From positions 434,001-498,000 of the forward strand of contig NZ_JAXIVS010000004.1 in the NCBI RefSeq assembly GCF_034259325.1: 64,000 nucleotides of DNA. Reading direction: 5' to 3'. The translations under genes and the position numbers were made by a program. Source of the stretch: Hyalangium ruber (GTDB lineage Bacteria > Myxococcota > Myxococcia > Myxococcales > Myxococcaceae). Shown one piece after another: positions 45,775 to 54,680 of the stretch. How positions within the stretch are numbered: the first letter of the stretch is position 1; the number at the start of each line of letters is the position of its first letter. Under the pieces are notes generated by a model. The model had not been told where the DNA came from, made no database searches, and worked only from the letters and a program-made list of their open reading frames with translations.

Positions 45775-48700
45775 CTACGGAGAGCCCGTCGCGGTCTGGA
45801 TGTCCTTGCGCAGCTTCTTCACCCGGCCGAGCACCTCTTTGTCACCCGAGTCCCCGACCTGCTCCACGTCATTCTGCAGCGTCTCGTAGCGCTTGCAGAG
45901 AATGCCAATCTTGGGGCTCTCGCACGACTGGACCTCGGTGAGCTTCTGGAAGGCCCGGCTCGCCAGTCCCCACTCCTTCTGCAGCTCGCTGGCTTCCTTG
46001 CGCGCCGGCTTCTTCGAGGGGCGCGCGGGTGCCTTCTTGGACGAGGGGGCCGATGTCGGCGAGGCCATCAGGGGGACGAGCATCTCGTCCTCCATCATGG
46101 GCTCCTCGGCCTCGGGCGTTTCAGCACCGGGCGTCGCGGCCTCCGCCACCGCGGGCGCCTGCGCGCCGCCAGGCGTGGGAGCCGCTTCAGCCCCGGGCGC
46201 CGAGGCACCCGCCCCGGGAACCGGAGTCAGCGGCGAGCGCCCAAGCGCCGACTTCGGCGGTGGGTTCACCGGCACCGGCTTGAAGTTCAGCAGGGGCTTG
46301 AGGTGGGGGAACGCCATCGCCATGGCCCCACCCGTGATGCCCAGCACCAGGACCGTCACCAGGAGCCATCCCCAGGAGCGCTTCTTGGCGGGCGCGGCCT
46401 TCTGCGGGCGCTTGGTGTCGTCGCGGTGGATGCGGCGCGTGTTCTCGCCCGGCCGGGTGGGAATCGGCGTCTTCCGGGTGTCCTCGCGTGGATCCCTTGC
46501 CTCCAGCCCGTCCTCCTCGGGAGCTGGCGCGGGAGCGGACTCGGGCTCCACCGCGCGTACCGGACCGCTTCGAGGCGAGGTGCCTCCCCGAGTCACTGGC
46601 GCCATCCCCGGAGAGGACAGGCGCGGACGGCGCGCGTTCTTCGGGCGCGACACCCCGGAGGACTCCTCCAGCGTGCCTCCCACGATGATTGGATCCGGCG
46701 CATCCGGGACAGGCGGAGCGCTCAGGGCGGCCTCATCGAGCATGACGCGCGGCTGCGTGTCCTCGGGGATGGCCGGGTTGGCGGCCATCTGGTAGCTCGG
46801 ATGCGTGTCATCCATGCCCGGCCGGTTGGAGCCCGTCGGAGGCAGGGTGTCGCTCGGGAGCAGCTGCAGCAGGGCCTCCGCGGAGAGGGGCGCCGCGCTC
46901 CCGGCCTCGGCCAGCGCCGCGCGGGAGGCGGAGACGCGGCCGGACTCGCGCACGGGCGGCAGGGTATCCATGGCCGAGGTGGAGGTCCGCGGCCCCTCGG
47001 GAGGAGGCGCGCTCCGAGCCTCCGAGGCCTCCCGCTGCGAGGGCGCCTGCGTGGGAGCGGAGAACCAGGCCGGTGGCGGAGGCGCGGCCGGGGCGGGCGT
47101 GGGCTCGGGAACGAAGGGCGTGGGAATCTGGATCGTCGGCGCGTTGGCGCGAACGGTGTCCGTGCTCCGGGGCTCGGGAGTCAGCGCGCTGGCGGGTACT
47201 GGAGGAGGCGCCGCCTGCCGTGGCGGCTCCGGGGGCCGGGGCGCGCTGGCGGCCGGGGGTGGCGCGGGGGGGCGCGCGCTGGGGCTGGCCGCCGGGGGAG
47301 CCGCGCGCGGAGCTTCCAGGGACCGGGGAAGCTGCGGGCTGGTGACCGCCGGGGGAGGAACCCCGGGCGGGATGGCGGCCGCCGGCACGAGCGGAATCGG
47401 CACCTCCACCGTCAGCGCCTGGGAGCGCGACGCGGACGCGGCCACGGCCACGGCCAAGGGCACCGGCGGCGGGGGGCGCTCGGGAGCCTCGGGGCGCATC
47501 TCCACGGAGGCGGTATCGGTCGTGAGGGAGGTGGCGGACAACGCGGGCCGCGAGCGGGACCGGGGTACCTCGAGCGCCTCGACGGAGGCCGCGGGGCGCG
47601 TCTCCTCCAGCGGCACACCGGGCCGGGTATCGCCCTCGTTCACCGGGCTGCCGTCACGGCCGCGCGGCGTGGGCTGGAACGAGAGCGGCTCGACGGGCCC
47701 ATCCAGCTTGATGGTACGCGGGGGCAGCAGGGGCTTGGGGAGCCGCCCCGCCGGGTCCGTGGACTCCTCGGAGCGCGAGGACTCCTCGTTGCCCGCGCGC
47801 GGCACGTCCTTGAGCTGCGCCAGCATCTTGCGCTCGCTCTGGTACTCGGCGGAGAACAGGTCGCGCATGAAGCGGGTGACGCTCTCGGGCCCCGCGCTCG
47901 GGTCGATCTCCAGCAAGCAGCTCTGCAGCCTGCCCCGGAACTCCTCGGCCGTCTGGAAGCGCTGCCCCGGCTCCACCGCCAGCGCCTTCATCACCAATTG
48001 CGCCACCGCCGGCGGAGTCATCGGCTCCACTTCGCTCAGCGGGGTGATGCGCGGGTTGGCCACCACGGACATCAGGTCGCCGGCGTGGACGCTGTCGAAG
48101 GGGTTCTTGCCGGAGATGAGCTCGTAGAGGCACAGCCCCACCGCGTACAGGTCGCTGCGGCGGTCCACCTGCTGGTGGCGCGCCTGCTCCGGCGACATGT
48201 AGAGGAACTTGCCCAGGATGATGCTCGGGTTGGTCTTCGCCGCAGACAGCCGGCTCTTGGCCAGCCCGAAGTCGATGACCTTCACCTCCCCCTCATAGGA
48301 GATGAGGATGTTCTGCGGGGAGATGTCCCGGTGGACGAGGTGGATCTCCTTCTCGTCGTCGTCGCGCTTGCGGTGCGCGTACGCCAGGGCGTCCAGCACC
48401 CGCGCCATCACGAACAGGATGAAGGTGAGCGGCAGCGGCATCTGCCGGTCCCGCACCCGCCCGGCCACCTTGCGCAGGTCCTTGCCGTCCACGTACTCGA
48501 GGGCCATGTACGCCTCGCCCTCGTGCAGCCCCATGTCCAGCACCTGCGCGATGGAGCCGTGGCTGAGCTTCACCAGCGTGCGCGCCTCGCCCACGAAGCG
48601 GTCGACGAACTCCGTATCCTCGGCCAGCTGCGGGAGGATCTTCTTGATGACGCACAGCTTCTCGAAGCCCTGCGCGCCCTCCAGCCGTGCCAGGTAGATC

Positions 48701-48801
48701 TCCCCCATGCCCCCCGTGGCGAGGTGGGACAGGAGCGTGTACCGGCCGAACGGTTGCGGCCGGAAGGGACGCAGCCGGGCTGATGGCGAGGAAGAGGTCA
48801 T
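45775..48801 (-). CDS. large Ser/Thr protein kinase with Pro-rich linker
   Basis: 1008 residues. Kinase domain about 15-290 with ATGGMGEIYLA loop, VHRDISPQNILI, DFGLAK and SPEQ. A 450-residue Pro/Ala-rich linker follows, then one membrane helix (WLLVTVLVLGITGGAMAMAF) and an extracytoplasmic region ending in a helical part with two Cys (CESPKIGILCKR). It could sense an envelope signal. The btuD-like gene lies 4 nt downstream. Confidence 0.9.
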   Translation of the reverse strand: MTSSSPSARLRPFRPQPFGRYTLLSHLATGGMGEIYLARLEGAQGFEKLCVIKKILPQLAEDTEFVDRFVGEARTLVKLSHGSIAQVLDMGLHEGEAYMALEYVDGKDLRKVAGRVRDRQMPLPLTFILFVMARVLDALAYAHRKRDDDEKEIHLVHRDISPQNILISYEGEVKVIDFGLAKSRLSAAKTNPSIILGKFLYMSPEQARHQQVDRRSDLYAVGLCLYELISGKNPFDSVHAGDLMSVVANPRITPLSEVEPMTPPAVAQLVMKALAVEPGQRFQTAEEFRGRLQSCLLEIDPSAGPESVTRFMRDLFSAEYQSERKMLAQLKDVPRAGNEESSRSEESTDPAGRLPKPLLPPRTIKLDGPVEPLSFQPTPRGRDGSPVNEGDTRPGVPLEETRPAASVEALEVPRSRSRPALSATSLTTDTASVEMRPEAPERPPPPVPLAVAVAASASRSQALTVEVPIPLVPAAAIPPGVPPPAVTSPQLPRSLEAPRAAPPAASPSARPPAPPPAASAPRPPEPPRQAAPPPVPASALTPEPRSTDTVRANAPTIQIPTPFVPEPTPAPAAPPPPAWFSAPTQAPSQREASEARSAPPPEGPRTSTSAMDTLPPVRESGRVSASRAALAEAGSAAPLSAEALLQLLPSDTLPPTGSNRPGMDDTHPSYQMAANPAIPEDTQPRVMLDEAALSAPPVPDAPDPIIVGGTLEESSGVSRPKNARRPRLSSPGMAPVTRGGTSPRSGPVRAVEPESAPAPAPEEDGLEARDPREDTRKTPIPTRPGENTRRIHRDDTKRPQKAAPAKKRSWGWLLVTVLVLGITGGAMAMAFPHLKPLLNFKPVPVNPPPKSALGRSPLTPVPGAGASAPGAEAAPTPGGAQAPAVAEAATPGAETPEAEEPMMEDEMLVPLMASPTSAPSSKKAPARPSKKPARKEASELQKEWGLASRAFQKLTEVQSCESPKIGILCKRYETLQNDVEQVGDSGDKEVLGRVKKLRKDIQTATGSP

Positions 48802-48898: not shown

Positions 48899-50602
48899 CT
48901 ACTTGACTACGCCGGGGTTGGTGAGCTGGGGGATGTCCTCCTCCAGCACTTCGAAGGCCGCCATCTTCTCCTTGGGGGCCCGCAAGAGGCGCTCTCCCAG
49001 GGGCATGACGTCGAAGCGGGCCCCCACGGAGGCCAGCGTCTTGCCCGTAATCAGCACCTGGCCAGGGGCGGCGGTGGCCGCCAGCCACGCGGCCACGGGC
49101 ATCCCCTCGCCCACGGCGGTCAGGTCCAGGCGCGGCTCGAGGCCGATCATCCCCACCAGCGCCTTGGTGGTGTGGATGCCGATGCGCAGCTCGCACCGCT
49201 CGTCCGGGGGCCGGCGGGACATGGCCCGCTCCCAGTCCGCCTGGATCGCCAGCCCCGCCCGCACCGCACGCACCGCGTCATCCGGCTTGCCGTAGGGCAC
49301 GCCGAACAGGGCGCGCACGGACTCGCCGATGAACGTCTCCACCGAGCCCTCGAAGCTGAAGAGCAGCCCGCCCATCTTCTGGTGGAAGTCATTGAGGACG
49401 GCCGTGGCGCGCACCGGGCCCAGGCGTGCGCTCAGCGCCCCGAAGCCCGCCAGCTCCGCGTGCAGCACCGTGAGAGGCCGCTCCTCCAGCCCCGGCAGCC
49501 GGCCTCCGGCACGCTGGGCCTCGCCGGCGCGGCGCTCGGCCACCTCCGGCGCGTGGAAGCGCTCCAGGGTGCGGCGAAGGCCCGTGCTGGCCCCACCCCC
49601 GCCGCTGCTCTCCTTGTTCGAGAAGCGCTGCAGCCCGCTGGCCACCAGGTGCGCCACGGCGGTGCAGGCGTCGAGCATGATCTCCAGCGTCGTCTCCCCT
49701 TCGGCCGGGGTGTTGACGTAGAGCACGCCCGAGAAGGGCGCCTCGCGGCCGATGGGGATGCACAGCACCCGGTCCACGCCGTAGAGGATGACGCTCTCGC
49801 GGCCAGCGAAGCGGCGGTCATCGCGCACGTCTCCCACGGCCAGCGCGCTGCCCTGGCGCAGGGCCTCCTCGACGATGGCGTCCGAGACGGGCACCTCGCC
49901 CTTGGCGAGCTTGCCCCGGTGGCGCACGGCGGCGGGCACGAACACCCCGCTGGAGTGGCGCAGGAGCACCACCGCCGTGGTGGCCTCGGTGCGCTCGATG
50001 ACCCGGTCCATGGAGGACTCGAGGAACGACGTGAGCGTCTCGGCGGTGGCCAGCGCCTCGGCGGTGCGGAACAGCAGCACCAGCGTCTCGTAGGAGGCCT
50101 TCGGAGAGGCGCTGCTTGGCGACAGGGGCGAGGGGCCGGACTGGGCGTCGTCGAACGGGACGGGCGCGAAGTTGTCCAGCGCCCGCAGCACGTCCAGGTC
50201 CTTCACGTTCTTGGCGAGGATGACGGAAGGGCTGACGTCCTCCCCGTGGCCGAAGCGGCGCACGCCACCCGCGCCCAGGTCCACCATCTCCGTGGCGGCG
50301 CTCTCCACGGTGTGCGGCTGGCGGATGGCCAGGGAGTTCTCCCCCAGGGAGACGGTGTCTCCGGGAGTCAGCTCGCGGCTGCCCTGCAGGGGGATGCCGT
50401 TGACCCGGCTGCCGTTGCGGCTGCCCAGGTCCTCGATGCGCAGCGAGTCGCCCTCCACGAGCAGCCGGGCGTGCTTGCGGGAGACGAGGTCGCCTCCCAG
50501 CACGATGTCGTTCTCATCCGCCCGGCCAAGGCTGGTGGCTCCTTCAGGTAAATCGTAAGGAGTGTCGAAGTAGCCTGGGCCGTTGATGATGATCTGCCAC
50601 AT
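48899..50602 (-). CDS. FHA-GAF-pseudo-adenylate-cyclase protein
   Basis: 567 residues. FHA at about 20-95 (SLGRADENDIVL, VSRKHARL, GSRNGSRVNG), GAF at about 170-330, and a class III cyclase fold at about 375-550. The cyclase has lost key residues: the first metal Asp is Glu (HAELAGFG), the second is Glu (FIGESVRALFG), the substrate Lys is Thr, and the Asn/Arg pair of NVASR is replaced (PVAAW). It is probably not catalytic and may act as a signal-responsive partner. A paralogue at 53061 keeps all residues. 108 nt separate it from the SIR2-CHAT gene upstream. Confidence 0.85.
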   Translation of the reverse strand: MWQIIINGPGYFDTPYDLPEGATSLGRADENDIVLGGDLVSRKHARLLVEGDSLRIEDLGSRNGSRVNGIPLQGSRELTPGDTVSLGENSLAIRQPHTVESAATEMVDLGAGGVRRFGHGEDVSPSVILAKNVKDLDVLRALDNFAPVPFDDAQSGPSPLSPSSASPKASYETLVLLFRTAEALATAETLTSFLESSMDRVIERTEATTAVVLLRHSSGVFVPAAVRHRGKLAKGEVPVSDAIVEEALRQGSALAVGDVRDDRRFAGRESVILYGVDRVLCIPIGREAPFSGVLYVNTPAEGETTLEIMLDACTAVAHLVASGLQRFSNKESSGGGGASTGLRRTLERFHAPEVAERRAGEAQRAGGRLPGLEERPLTVLHAELAGFGALSARLGPVRATAVLNDFHQKMGGLLFSFEGSVETFIGESVRALFGVPYGKPDDAVRAVRAGLAIQADWERAMSRRPPDERCELRIGIHTTKALVGMIGLEPRLDLTAVGEGMPVAAWLAATAAPGQVLITGKTLASVGARFDVMPLGERLLRAPKEKMAAFEVLEEDIPQLTNPGVVK

Positions 50603-50710: not shown

Positions 50711-52927
50711 CTAACCCTCGTCGTCCCCCGCGGCGGGGAAGGACAACGCTCCGTCTCCGCTGAGGACGTACTGGCGGGCCGTGGGGTCCTCGGGGAACTT
50801 CTGGAGCGTCTCCACCCGCGCGCGGCGGACGGCGTCGGCGATGGGCAAGCGCAGCAAGAGGTCGCGGTGCAGCGCGGCCATGAAGGCCGTGCCCGCCTCG
50901 GCGCTCGGCATGTCGAAGGCCCCCACGAAGGCGCCCACGCCCACCTGGGTCGCCAGGTCCATGAAGCCCTCGCGCCCCTCGAAGAGGGAAACCCGGGAGT
51001 TCGGCACGGGCAGCCGCTGGTAGCCCCTCGCTCCGGCGTGTACGCCGAACGCATGGGGGACAAAGGCCGAGGAGGGGGCGTTCACGACCAGGAAGGGCAG
51101 CTGGCCCCGGTCGAGGACCGAGCGGAGGGCGCCCGAGGACAGCTCCATGGCCCCGGGAAGCTCCAGGTAGAGCTCGCCGTCCACCTGACCCACGCCTCCT
51201 GTGTAGTGCAGGAGGTCCGGCAGCTCCCGGTCCAGCTCCGCCATGACGCGGTTGAACATCGCGTCCTCTCCTCGCAGCACCGTGCAGGAGATCCCCAGCG
51301 AACGCCCGTACAGGCGAGCGAGCGCGTCAATCTCTTGCCGCGCGCCGCCACTGGTCGACCCACCTCCCTCGATGAGGAGGACGCGGGGGGAGGAGCGAAC
51401 CCGTGGAGTTCCCCGCGCCTGACGCGCGACGCCCACCGGAGCACGCACCACCTTCCTCGCCAGGGCCACGGGCGCGTCCCGAAGCGGGAGCAACTCCCAG
51501 GGGAAGCGCGCCAGCTCCGGAGCGCCATGCAGCACGAGCGGCGCCTGCGGTGAGACGCTGGGAGCGCCCAGCGCCTCGAGCACGGGGCCCGGCAGGTACT
51601 TCGCGAAGAGCTTGGGGACGTGGGTGTAGAGCCAGGCGTGAGACTTCGCGCCCTCTTCCAGTGCCCGCTTCAGGGACAGCCACAGGTCCTCGGTCAATGC
51701 CGAGGGCGCGACGCCCTGCACCGTGGACTCCGGCTTGCCCTGGATCAGCCGGAGCTGGAGCCTGCCTTCCGCGGACTCGAGGAACAGGTGCTGCGGCTCG
51801 ATGGAGGCAGCGGTCCGGGTCGCGGCGGGCTGGGGCACCGCGGGAGCGGCCTGGGGCACGGGCCCGGCGGAAAGAGTGGCCTCGTCCTCCGTGCTCTCCT
51901 CGGAGGGGTGGGAGACGCCCAGCGGCTCGAGCAGCCGGGACAGGAGACCGCCGGGGGATTGCGGTACGGGGCTCGGAGCTCGTGCCGGAACCCTGGAGTC
52001 GCTGGGGTGCGGCGCGGGGATGGGAGGCGCCACGGGAGCGGCCATGTTCTGCGGCACCACCTTCATCTGCGCAGGGGACTCCACAGCGACCGGCTTGGGA
52101 GTCACCGCGTCCTTCAAGGCCCGCAGGAAGAGGGGCACCTCCTCGTGCTTCCCACTCGTATAGGGGATGACCCGGATGCGCGCCGTGCGCCAGAGCACGT
52201 CTCGCTCCACCGGGCCCAGGTCCGTCATCAGCGCGTAGCGCTCGGGGACATAGCCCCGGAAGTGCGTGAGCTGTCGGTCCATCAGCAAGCGGAAGTCCGG
52301 ATCCGACAGCGAGTAGCCCACGAAGAACAGGGCCTTGGTGAGCAGCAGGCCCGTGAAGACCTCGTTGAAGGCGGGGTTGGCGTGGATGATTTCGCTGTAG
52401 TCGCGCGAGGTGAGCACCACCGTCTCGGGCCGGTCGATGTCGCCGTGCGCCTTGAGGATGAACGGCCCACCGTTGAAGAGCAGCCCGCCCAGCGCCTCGG
52501 TGTCCTTGTGGGTGAGCGTCTTGGGATAGGCGCCCTTCTCGGCCGCGTACGCCCGCTCCAGCAGCTTGTCGTAGTTGGTCGTCACCCAGGCACTGAAGGG
52601 CAGCTGCATCAGCGTCTGATGCACTGCCGGTAGCGCCTCCTTGTCGCCGCGCAGCTTGTCGGTGAGGAACTGGTGGTAGGCCGCGCCCAGCTCCTCCTTG
52701 CAGAAGTCGGCCACCTCCAGGAGCTTGCCTTGCTCCACGAGCCTCTGGAGCTCCGCCTGATGGGTCTCCCCCTCTGGCAGCGCGGCGACCATGTCGTCGA
52801 CGACCTCCAGCAGCAGCTTGCGCCAAGTGGGCAGCCCCGCCGCGGACGACAGGCCCGCGCCGACGAACACCACGCACCGGCCCTGCTGGATGTAGCGGAC
52901 GAGCAACCCGGGAGGCTTGGGAGTCAT
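50711..52927 (-). CDS. SIR2-family domain fused to a degenerate CHAT-like domain
   Basis: 738 residues, no signal peptide or membrane helix. The N-terminal part (about 8-270) is a SIR2_2-type NAD-binding domain: VGAGLSSAAG (22-31), TTNYDKLLE (116-124), His 161 in KAHGDID and FVGYSLSDPDFRLL (202-215). A Pro-rich linker (275-380) joins a C-terminal region with CHAT-like features: FPWELLPL (475-482), LLHYTGG (572-578), VVNAPSS (614-620) and ADAVRRARVETLQ near the end. The CHAT His of GHG and the Cys of NAC are Gly and Pro, so protease activity is doubtful. SIR2 NADases serve antiphage defence; a defence role is inferred. The ATG at 52927 was chosen although no clear SD precedes it; an in-frame GTG lies 7 codons upstream. 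Confidence 0.78.
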   Translation of the reverse strand: MTPKPPGLLVRYIQQGRCVVFVGAGLSSAAGLPTWRKLLLEVVDDMVAALPEGETHQAELQRLVEQGKLLEVADFCKEELGAAYHQFLTDKLRGDKEALPAVHQTLMQLPFSAWVTTNYDKLLERAYAAEKGAYPKTLTHKDTEALGGLLFNGGPFILKAHGDIDRPETVVLTSRDYSEIIHANPAFNEVFTGLLLTKALFFVGYSLSDPDFRLLMDRQLTHFRGYVPERYALMTDLGPVERDVLWRTARIRVIPYTSGKHEEVPLFLRALKDAVTPKPVAVESPAQMKVVPQNMAAPVAPPIPAPHPSDSRVPARAPSPVPQSPGGLLSRLLEPLGVSHPSEESTEDEATLSAGPVPQAAPAVPQPAATRTAASIEPQHLFLESAEGRLQLRLIQGKPESTVQGVAPSALTEDLWLSLKRALEEGAKSHAWLYTHVPKLFAKYLPGPVLEALGAPSVSPQAPLVLHGAPELARFPWELLPLRDAPVALARKVVRAPVGVARQARGTPRVRSSPRVLLIEGGGSTSGGARQEIDALARLYGRSLGISCTVLRGEDAMFNRVMAELDRELPDLLHYTGGVGQVDGELYLELPGAMELSSGALRSVLDRGQLPFLVVNAPSSAFVPHAFGVHAGARGYQRLPVPNSRVSLFEGREGFMDLATQVGVGAFVGAFDMPSAEAGTAFMAALHRDLLLRLPIADAVRRARVETLQKFPEDPTARQYVLSGDGALSFPAAGDDEG

Positions 52928-53060
52928 ATAAGGATAACGATCGACCACCGGACGCCTGCTTGCCAACCACGCTCCCACACTTCGTGCGCGAACCTGGCCG
53001 GAGGGCCCTGGCACAGGGTCACGGCGCTTGGGCAGAATGAGGCAACCCAGGAGGGTCTCC

Positions 53061-54680
53061 GTGCCGGTGCTGCAGCTCATCATGAACCCCGGACTGTCCG
53101 ACGAGCAGGTCTTCCCCCTCGGCCCGGGCAGCACGCTCATCGGCCGAGACCCGGAGAACCAGGTCTCCATCCTCCACAAGAGCCTGTCGCGCCATCACGC
53201 CCGGCTCGAGACCTCCCATGGCAAGGTGGTCCTGACCGACCTGGACAGCAAGAACGGCACCTTCATCCGCGGCACCCGCGTGAAAGCGAGCTGCGAGCTG
53301 CAGCCCGGCGACACCTTCACCTGTGGGGCGGTCCACTTCCGACTCGTGGCCCAGAGCGTGGAGCAAGTGGTCAACCCCACGATGACCCACACCGCCCCCA
53401 CGCTCTCGCAGGTGAGCATGCAGGAGCTGCTGGGCGGCCTGGGCCTGGAGGGCTCGCGCACCTCGGCGCTCAAGCTCAGCGCCCTGGCCGAGGCCGAGCG
53501 CGGGCGGGACAAGCTGCAGATCCTCCTCAAGGTCAGCCAGCTGCTCTCCTCGCCGGGCACCATCGACAGCCTGATGGAGCGCTCGCTGAACCTGGTGTTC
53601 CAGATCCTTGAGGTGGACCGGGCGGTCATCCTCCTGGTGGAGCCGCGCACAGGGGCGCTGCTGCCTCGGGTGACGCGGACCTCGGAGGAGGTCAAGAGCC
53701 CCGGGCAAATCTACAGCAAGCACATCGTCAACTACGTGCAGCAGCACGGCGTGGCGGCGCTGTTCTCCGACGCGCGGCTGGACCCTCGGCTGGAGACGTC
53801 CGAGTCCGTCATGCAGCAGTCCATCTACGCGGCCATGTGCGCGCCGCTCAAGGTGCGCGACGAGCTGCTGGGCGTGCTCTACGTGGACAACCTGCGAATT
53901 CCAGAGCGCTTCTCCCAGGAGGACCTCGAGTTCCTGTCCTCCTTCGCCAATCAGGTGGCCATCGCCCTGGAGAACTCGATGCTCTACCGGCGCATCGAGC
54001 AGGAGGCCGTCGTCCGCAGCAACTACCAGCGCTTCTTCCCGCCCAGCGCCCTCAAGCGGCTGGAGCAGTCCTCCTCGGGCATGGTGCTAGGCGCGAGAGA
54101 GACGGAGGTCACCACCCTCTTCTCGGACATCGCCGGCTTCACGCAGATGTCCTCGCGGATGCGGCCCATCGAAGTGGTGGACATGCTCAACGAGTACTTC
54201 CCCGTCATGGCGGACATCGTGTTCGAGCAGGAGGGGACGCTCGAGAAGTACATCGGCGATGCGCTGATGGCCATCTGGGGCGCGCCGTTCTCGCACCCGG
54301 ATGACGCGGACCGCGCGCTGTGGGCGGCGGTGCGGATGCAGCAGGAACTGGTACCGCTCAACGAGCGCCGGCGCGCCCGCCAGCAGGAGGAGATCCGGGT
54401 CCACATCGGCCTGAACACCGGCCCGGTGGCGGCGGGCAACATCGGCTCCAACCGCTTCCTGCAGTACGCCACCATCGGCGACACCACCAACGTGGCCAGC
54501 CGGGTGTGCAGCGCCGCCCAGTCGGGCGAGGTCCTCATCACCCAGAGCACCTATGACCGGCTGGTGGAGCGGCAGCGCTGGAAGCTGGAGCTGCTGCCCC
54601 CCGTCCAGGTCAAGGGCAAGGACGCGCCCCTGACGCTCTACCGGGTGGACTGGCGCGACATGAAGGCGCCAGGAACCTGA
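53061..54680 (+). CDS. FHA-GAF-class III adenylate cyclase
   Basis: 539 residues. FHA domain (about 20-90; GSTLIGRDPENQV, LSRHHARL, DSKNGTFIRG), GAF domain (about 165-320), and a full class III cyclase: metal Asp in LFSDIAGFT and IGDALMAIWG, adenine-selecting Lys in LEKYIGD and Asp in TIGDTTN, Asn/Arg in NVASRV. It should make cyclic AMP. The start is the GTG at 53061, which has AGGAGG 6 nt upstream; the ATG at 53037 lacks this. Divergent from the SIR2-CHAT gene, with a 133-nt gap. Confidence 0.92.
   Translation: MPVLQLIMNPGLSDEQVFPLGPGSTLIGRDPENQVSILHKSLSRHHARLETSHGKVVLTDLDSKNGTFIRGTRVKASCELQPGDTFTCGAVHFRLVAQSVEQVVNPTMTHTAPTLSQVSMQELLGGLGLEGSRTSALKLSALAEAERGRDKLQILLKVSQLLSSPGTIDSLMERSLNLVFQILEVDRAVILLVEPRTGALLPRVTRTSEEVKSPGQIYSKHIVNYVQQHGVAALFSDARLDPRLETSESVMQQSIYAAMCAPLKVRDELLGVLYVDNLRIPERFSQEDLEFLSSFANQVAIALENSMLYRRIEQEAVVRSNYQRFFPPSALKRLEQSSSGMVLGARETEVTTLFSDIAGFTQMSSRMRPIEVVDMLNEYFPVMADIVFEQEGTLEKYIGDALMAIWGAPFSHPDDADRALWAAVRMQQELVPLNERRRARQQEEIRVHIGLNTGPVAAGNIGSNRFLQYATIGDTTNVASRVCSAAQSGEVLITQSTYDRLVERQRWKLELLPPVQVKGKDAPLTLYRVDWRDMKAPGT

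Follow-up and report, generated by a model that had tools for sequence, protein, structure and literature searches.

In the available sections of the literature, SIR2 and CHAT are tabulated as separate defense domains, and ThsA and DSR2 are described as acting against phage (PMC10952713); SIR2 is also listed among exchangeable effectors (PMC8195603), and Nudix and Macro domains have been linked to NAD conflict systems (PMC7159879). The combination of CHAT with TIR in a single protein chain has been described (PMC10907252). Bacterial caspase folds that have lost catalysis are on record as well: about 70% of the effector-position caspase domains in certain ternary conflict systems are inactive, for which a dominant-negative or peptide-binding role was proposed (PMC7159879), and pseudo-orthocaspases have been described (PMC6426788).

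The locus presented here, from the myxobacterium Hyalangium ruber, shares with the latter two groups a bacterial caspase fold without catalysis. In contrast to it, those proteins are either effectors linked to vWA or p20 orthocaspases whose dyad positions carry Tyr/Ser, and the available sections of both sources make no mention of SIR2-CHAT (PMC7159879; PMC6426788). Likewise, a search of the open-licence PMC literature for a SIR2-pseudoCHAT fusion, under its name or through its two domains, returned no paper that names it in the text available. The fusion is real, rare and conserved, and its dead protease is maintained.

Gene and Domain Organization

The window, i.e., the whole stretch of DNA that was analyzed, comprises 64,000 nucleotides (positions 434,001-498,000 of the forward strand of contig NZ_JAXIVS010000004.1, assembly GCF_034259325.1) of the 10.77 Mb H. 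ruber genome, here G000. On its minus strand, an open reading frame at 50711..52927, with an ATG start at 52927 and the stop at 50711, is translated into a protein of 738 aa, and the start is shared across the six myxobacterial members in the alignment. An earlier note on this DNA had proposed a one-gene SIR2/CHAT fusion; its motifs GAGLSS, TTNYD, HGD, FPWELLPL, LLHYTGG and AVRRAR are all found in this translation, and the same fusion, as a single frame, recurs in homologues. The protein begins with a SIR2_2 NADase-type domain (residues 1-275; 52103..52927, minus strand), delimited by Pfam, PDB sequence matches, fold matches, conservation and a cysteine survey. A Pro/Ala-rich linker follows (residues 276-377; 51797..52102, minus strand), recognized from the alignment, low pLDDT and dN/dS, which varies in length and is poorly conserved across the family. 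The remainder (residues 378-738; 50714..51796, minus strand) consists of a beta-strand/helical lead-in and the pseudo-CHAT domain, based on Pfam, the AF2 model and its fold match.

The SIR2 half is assigned with ease: Pfam places SIR2_2 at residues 114-254 with 96.8 bits (E 1.6e-27; cut-off 24.5), and the other family members score 89.8-102.6 bits. N118, D120 and H161 are kept in 11 of 11 aligned members, and N118 and H161 align with active-site residues of ThsA and KomC. In a PDB sequence search, the nearest solved relatives are three NADases that act against phage, namely ThsA (E 1.7e-22), KomC and DSR2, and the predicted full-length fold matches DSR2, KomC and ThsA. Both the Pfam score and the conserved catalytic residues bear out the NADase-type reading of this half, and the intact active-site residues, together with the ThsA, KomC and DSR2 relatives, predict that it hydrolyzes NAD+. 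Zinc-ribbon CxxC pairs are a feature of sirtuin deacylases; no CxxC was detected in the SIR2 half of any of the 11 members in the cysteine survey, and a sirtuin deacylase was rejected on these grounds.

Compared with ThsA, DSR1, DSR2 and KomC, the fusion has in common a SIR2_2-type domain near the N-terminus, the catalytic residues and the predicted fold, whereas its C-terminus is a pseudo-CHAT domain and Pfam finds no SLOG or other known sensor. Where Thoeris ThsA carries a C-terminal SLOG, Pfam and the fold indicate CHAT in the fusion, and the PADLOC match to ThsA ends at residue 235. With 46.5 (Dsr2) and 38.1 bits, the fusion also stays below the NCBIfam equivalog cut-off of 1400 for DSR1/DSR2.

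A CHAT Fold Without Its Catalytic Pair

The CHAT model (PF12770) scores 26.7 bits for the whole H. ruber protein and 29.4 bits for its C-terminal half alone, which is weak though above the curated Pfam cut-off of 24, and four of the other five myxobacterial copies fall under the cut-off (37.5, 20.9, 20.2, 15.8 and 15.8 bits). All six proteobacterial fusions reach 65.3-69.2 bits, and the CHAT call for the H. ruber protein draws mainly on these homologues and on the predicted fold, and less on its own Pfam score. The AF2 model of the C-terminal half (mean pLDDT 67.4; like the full-length model, built on just 8 sequences) matches SAVED-CHAT 8tl0 with Z 21.2 over 181 residues at an rmsd of 2.2, and the other fold matches listed include Csx29 (Z 14.8), separases (Z about 15), RgpB and the anti-sigma factor DdvA. 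No paper on the DdvA structure was found in the open-licence PMC literature, and DdvA remains a lead. As modeled, the C-terminal half has a caspase/CHAT fold. A chance or mis-called CHAT domain is ruled out by the homologues at 65-69 bits and by the fold, and with an HMM search of both halves, the check once proposed for it, the CHAT assignment held.

The earlier note had further claimed that the catalytic pair is lost, which the alignment confirms: in the H. ruber protein, the position of the CHAT catalytic His is occupied by Gly578 (codon 51194..51196, minus strand) and that of the Cys by Pro618 (codon 51074..51076, minus strand), where the intact-dyad CHATs compared have HYAGH or HFAGH, plus NACES. 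The protein has only three cysteines (18, 76 and 548), none of them at the nucleophile position, and the catalytic Cys is missing in all 12 family members (11 aligned, the twelfth read by eye). It is replaced by Pro in all six myxobacterial and by His in all six proteobacterial copies, whereas the catalytic His is kept in the proteobacterial copies and replaced by G, D, Q, F, D and D in the six myxobacterial ones. In the cysteine survey, no Cys of the CHAT half was shared by every member, which rules out a hidden alternative Cys nucleophile. The family has the caspase/CHAT fold of the CHAT proteases (SAVED-CHAT, Csx29/TPR-CHAT) and separases, but differs from them in lacking the Cys throughout and, in the myxobacterial copies, also the His.

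Elsewhere, the H. ruber genome holds ten CHAT matches above the Pfam cut-off (L001-L008 plus two that have no locus), found by a search whose sensitivity was such that the SIR2-pseudoCHAT gene itself is not among them.

Distribution and Ancestry of the Family

The family comprises at least 12 full-length proteins, six of them myxobacterial (H. ruber included), one from Bradyrhizobium and five from Ca. Accumulibacter, and the open frame is intact in every one. A search with the C-terminal half across 96 genomes of the same family found matches in six including H. ruber, all SIR2-fused, and 147 genomes of the class hold no further carrier. A collection scan with two myxobacterial SIR2 peptide patterns, a query that distant fusions with other SIR2 sequence would escape, added Bradyrhizobium sp. 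21 and four of the Ca. Accumulibacter members; a search of the Accumulibacter family gave the fifth. The fusion occurs in 1 of 391 genomes of the Bradyrhizobium family, and the Accumulibacter-family search yielded three full-length copies among 297. When the Bradyrhizobium CHAT half was searched against 195 genomes of the myxobacterial phylum, nine matched, and the six SIR2-pseudoCHATs took the best six places; the lower ranks went to LCAT-CHAT proteins of the same carriers or of other genomes, a cyclase-CHAT protein and one more CHAT. A tree was built from 27 CHAT domains, selected from those encountered; in it, all 11 pseudo-CHATs group together with support of 100/99, and the program flags long branches. 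The dead CHATs are a single clade. The fusion is thus genuine, as first read, but with at least 12 members it is not an isolated oddity.

The earlier statement that SIR2 effectors and CHAT proteases usually occur as separate proteins proved too strong, given a second, apparently independent combination in a myxobacterium. In G027, a protein of at least 1281 aa that reaches the contig end (L206:8461-12303) carries SIR2_2 and then CHAT in one chain, as the present family does, but, unlike the latter, has an intact dyad (HFTGHG, SCYS) with AAA and TPR following. Since its CHAT domain scores only 12.8 bits against the pseudo-CHAT profile, this protein probably stems from a separate fusion event. 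In other myxobacteria, SIR2_2 is fused to WD40 repeats (two proteins) or a protein kinase (one protein; L010:1504-3798, L024:1-2322 and L026:304-3780), and a protein of G036 (L204:4939-7413) joins a class III cyclase, labeled by eye, to a following CHAT domain (HFAGH, NAC).

A Putative NAD-Depleting Effector Under the Proposed Control of a Dead Protease

The explanation that we favor, with a probability of roughly one half, is a self-contained, NAD-depleting SIR2 effector that is held and triggered by its non-catalytic CHAT module. The pseudo-CHAT domain would no longer cut but bind, be it to a peptide, to a partner protein or to a second CHAT, and, when bound, would either keep the SIR2 domain off or assemble it until a trigger arrives. 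The trigger, be it a partner CHAT or a peptide, would lift the block, and the released SIR2 domain would hydrolyze NAD+, so that growth stops or the cell dies. The dead protease is probably a switch rather than a pair of scissors, since this rare pairing recurs in three distant bacterial groups. A sensor, as first suggested, is one of two or three roles that the pseudo-CHAT domain may have; another would be to serve an active CHAT protease as its partner or decoy. KomC, like ThsA and DSR2, acts against phage, which is a lead for phage infection as the putative trigger, but not a test of it.

The patchy distribution of the family and its presence at two different loci inside one genus would fit an accessory effector. 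Several observations count against the favored explanation. The full-length AF2 model has a mean pLDDT of 60, too low for a contact between the SIR2 and CHAT domains to be read, and among viral contigs 63 stretches fit the search pattern, none of which is a relative of the CHAT half. In addition, the neighbors of the myxobacterial fusions are signaling and transport genes. An association with defense islands, once suspected, was not recovered: PADLOC recognized no defense system within about 10 kb (61 of 121 neighbor genes; first 25 of 86 families matched), and its matches, judging from the family names, seem to reflect generic homology, with the kinase matched to PD-T4-6, the cyclase to PycC and the ABC gene to AriA. 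On plasmids, the search for CHAT-half relatives gave one weak CHAT match only, and on plasmids and phages no place covered 80% of the whole protein, the matches listed being SIR2-only.

Gene Neighborhoods and Alternative Explanations

The neighborhoods of the fusion, for which genes at the fetched loci were called with a custom GC3 script that mis-called some frames, differ between the three groups. In all five Accumulibacter loci, the gene order is DUF2721-like (a label that we assume for the first gene), NUDIX, TIR-like/Macro, SIR2-pseudoCHAT and MCP (the last by Pfam), with a gap of 14-15 nt to the SIR2 gene in the four loci measured; the TIR-like and Macro calls are under the Pfam cut-off (19.6 vs. 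24.7 and 18.6 vs. 22). As NUDIX and TIR-like/Macro domains are tied to NAD/ADP-ribose, this context counts in favor of a NADase effector.

In Bradyrhizobium, a co-directional gene 78 nt upstream of the fusion encodes 1,065 aa with abhydrolase/LCAT, M17_N and CHAT domains, in which the CHAT dyad is intact (His in HYAGHAFF, Cys in FFNACES) and M17_N presumably represents a macro-like fold. This neighbor is the starting point for a rather doubtful alternative, a two-protein, caspase-like cascade in which the dead CHAT pairs with, or is cut by, a lipase-like/macro-like/active CHAT protease; proteolysis or docking would then start the loss of NAD, whose ADP-ribose product may be read by the macro-like domain. 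The LCAT-CHAT class also ranks top among the CHATs scored with the dead-CHAT profile (86.9, 76.5 and 69.6 bits), the myxobacterial LCAT-CHATs reaching 34-42 bits, a further intact-dyad CHAT (L115) 31.0 bits and the other scored CHATs of G000 at most 14.6 bits, with eight of the ten CHAT matches of that genome having a locus and being included. Moreover, of 96 genomes, G087, G088 and G089 alone have a full-length orthologue of the G000 LCAT-CHAT at 74-77% identity and with an intact dyad, and it is in these four genomes, G000 included, that the fusion occupies the FHA locus described below. This co-occurrence is only suggestive, since four related genomes may share LCAT-CHAT by descent. Against a cascade, the two genes are unlinked in the myxobacteria, the fusion occurs in G085 and G086 with no such LCAT-CHAT orthologue, the Accumulibacter loci have no such neighbor, and the adjacency was seen once, in a bacterial family where a single genome has the fusion. 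More distant LCAT-CHATs also occur in fusion-free genomes, and one group of these scores no better than unrelated CHATs. At 12 further myxobacterial loci, no dead CHAT was found beside an LCAT-CHAT gene, the rest of the scores being near zero. Abhydrolase-CHAT proteins with an intact dyad, related to the Bradyrhizobium neighbor, occur in four myxobacteria (L119:9654-13058, L120:9878-13270, L121:8860-12237 and L122:9505-12927).

A housekeeping or developmental regulator, which would be part of an FHA/GAF-cyclase/kinase signaling block and tune NAD or ADP-ribose signaling in myxobacterial development rather than act in defense, is another alternative that we regard as unlikely. It is suggested by the FHA locus: in H. 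ruber, G087, G088 and G089, i.e., four of the six myxobacterial carriers, the fusion lies on the same strand 108-111 nt upstream of an FHA-GAF-cyclase gene followed by a Ser/Thr kinase gene, a block that is conserved in the genus. In H. ruber, the FHA-GAF-class III cyclase gene (48899..50602, minus strand) lies 108 nt downstream of the fusion and the Ser/Thr protein kinase gene (45775..48801, minus strand) comes next in the same direction, both identified by Pfam and synteny. However, the block is intact without the fusion in all four genomes searched (G085, G086, G014 and G029), in G085 and G086 the fusion adjoins a peptide-transport operon instead, with the block elsewhere, and the proteobacterial homologues have other neighbors. 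The cyclase and the kinase are at most candidate parts of a fusion system, to judge from gene order. A clean empty site was sought in the same four genomes and rejected, as the flank beyond the block differs too; because permease, binding-protein and TonB-receptor genes are also missing there, simple insertion is not demonstrable. In the H. ruber window, a second FHA-GAF-cyclase gene (53028-54680) is divergent from the fusion, and no close copy of it was found next to the fusion homologues of G087, G088 and G089.

For seven pairs, dN/dS was 0.03-0.40 in the SIR2 half, 0.47-1.81 in the linker and 0.16-0.43 in the CHAT half (Nei-Gojobori, which is rough at these distances), and the purifying selection on both halves that was expected if the dead CHAT has a role is thus observed. 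The CHAT half is conserved, yet changes at a higher rate than the SIR2 half, a pattern that sensors and partners would often show. A decaying fusion, in which the CHAT half is a functionless, degenerate remnant, could draw on this faster change and on the four different residues at the His position of the six myxobacterial copies, but it is very improbable, since purifying selection on both domains, with dN/dS of the CHAT half well below 1 in every pair in contrast to the linker, indicates a maintained pseudoprotease, and the open frames and the Cys-less state are common to all 12 members in two phyla.

Significance for Bacterial Pseudo-Caspases

A self-contained SIR2 effector with a regulatory pseudo-CHAT domain, the reading preferred here, touches on a question that extends beyond myxobacteria. 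Pseudo-caspases control cell death in animals, where cFLIP pairs with caspase-8, while the role of bacterial pseudo-caspases is, to our knowledge, mostly conjecture. By analogy, a SIR2-fused dead CHAT that docks with an active lipase-macro-CHAT protease would represent a bacterial version of the cFLIP/caspase-8 principle, an attractive but tentative and rather improbable notion for a pair whose genes are neighbors in Bradyrhizobium but lie apart in four myxobacteria. If true, proteolytic signaling, perhaps with ADP-ribose read via macro domains, would be wired to death by NAD depletion. In the family described here, a dead CHAT is covalently joined to an enzyme that is predicted to cause NAD loss and growth arrest, both of them easily measured; natural variants differ in the extent of dyad loss, and Bradyrhizobium adds an active-looking CHAT neighbor. 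Together, these features make the function of a bacterial pseudo-caspase directly testable.
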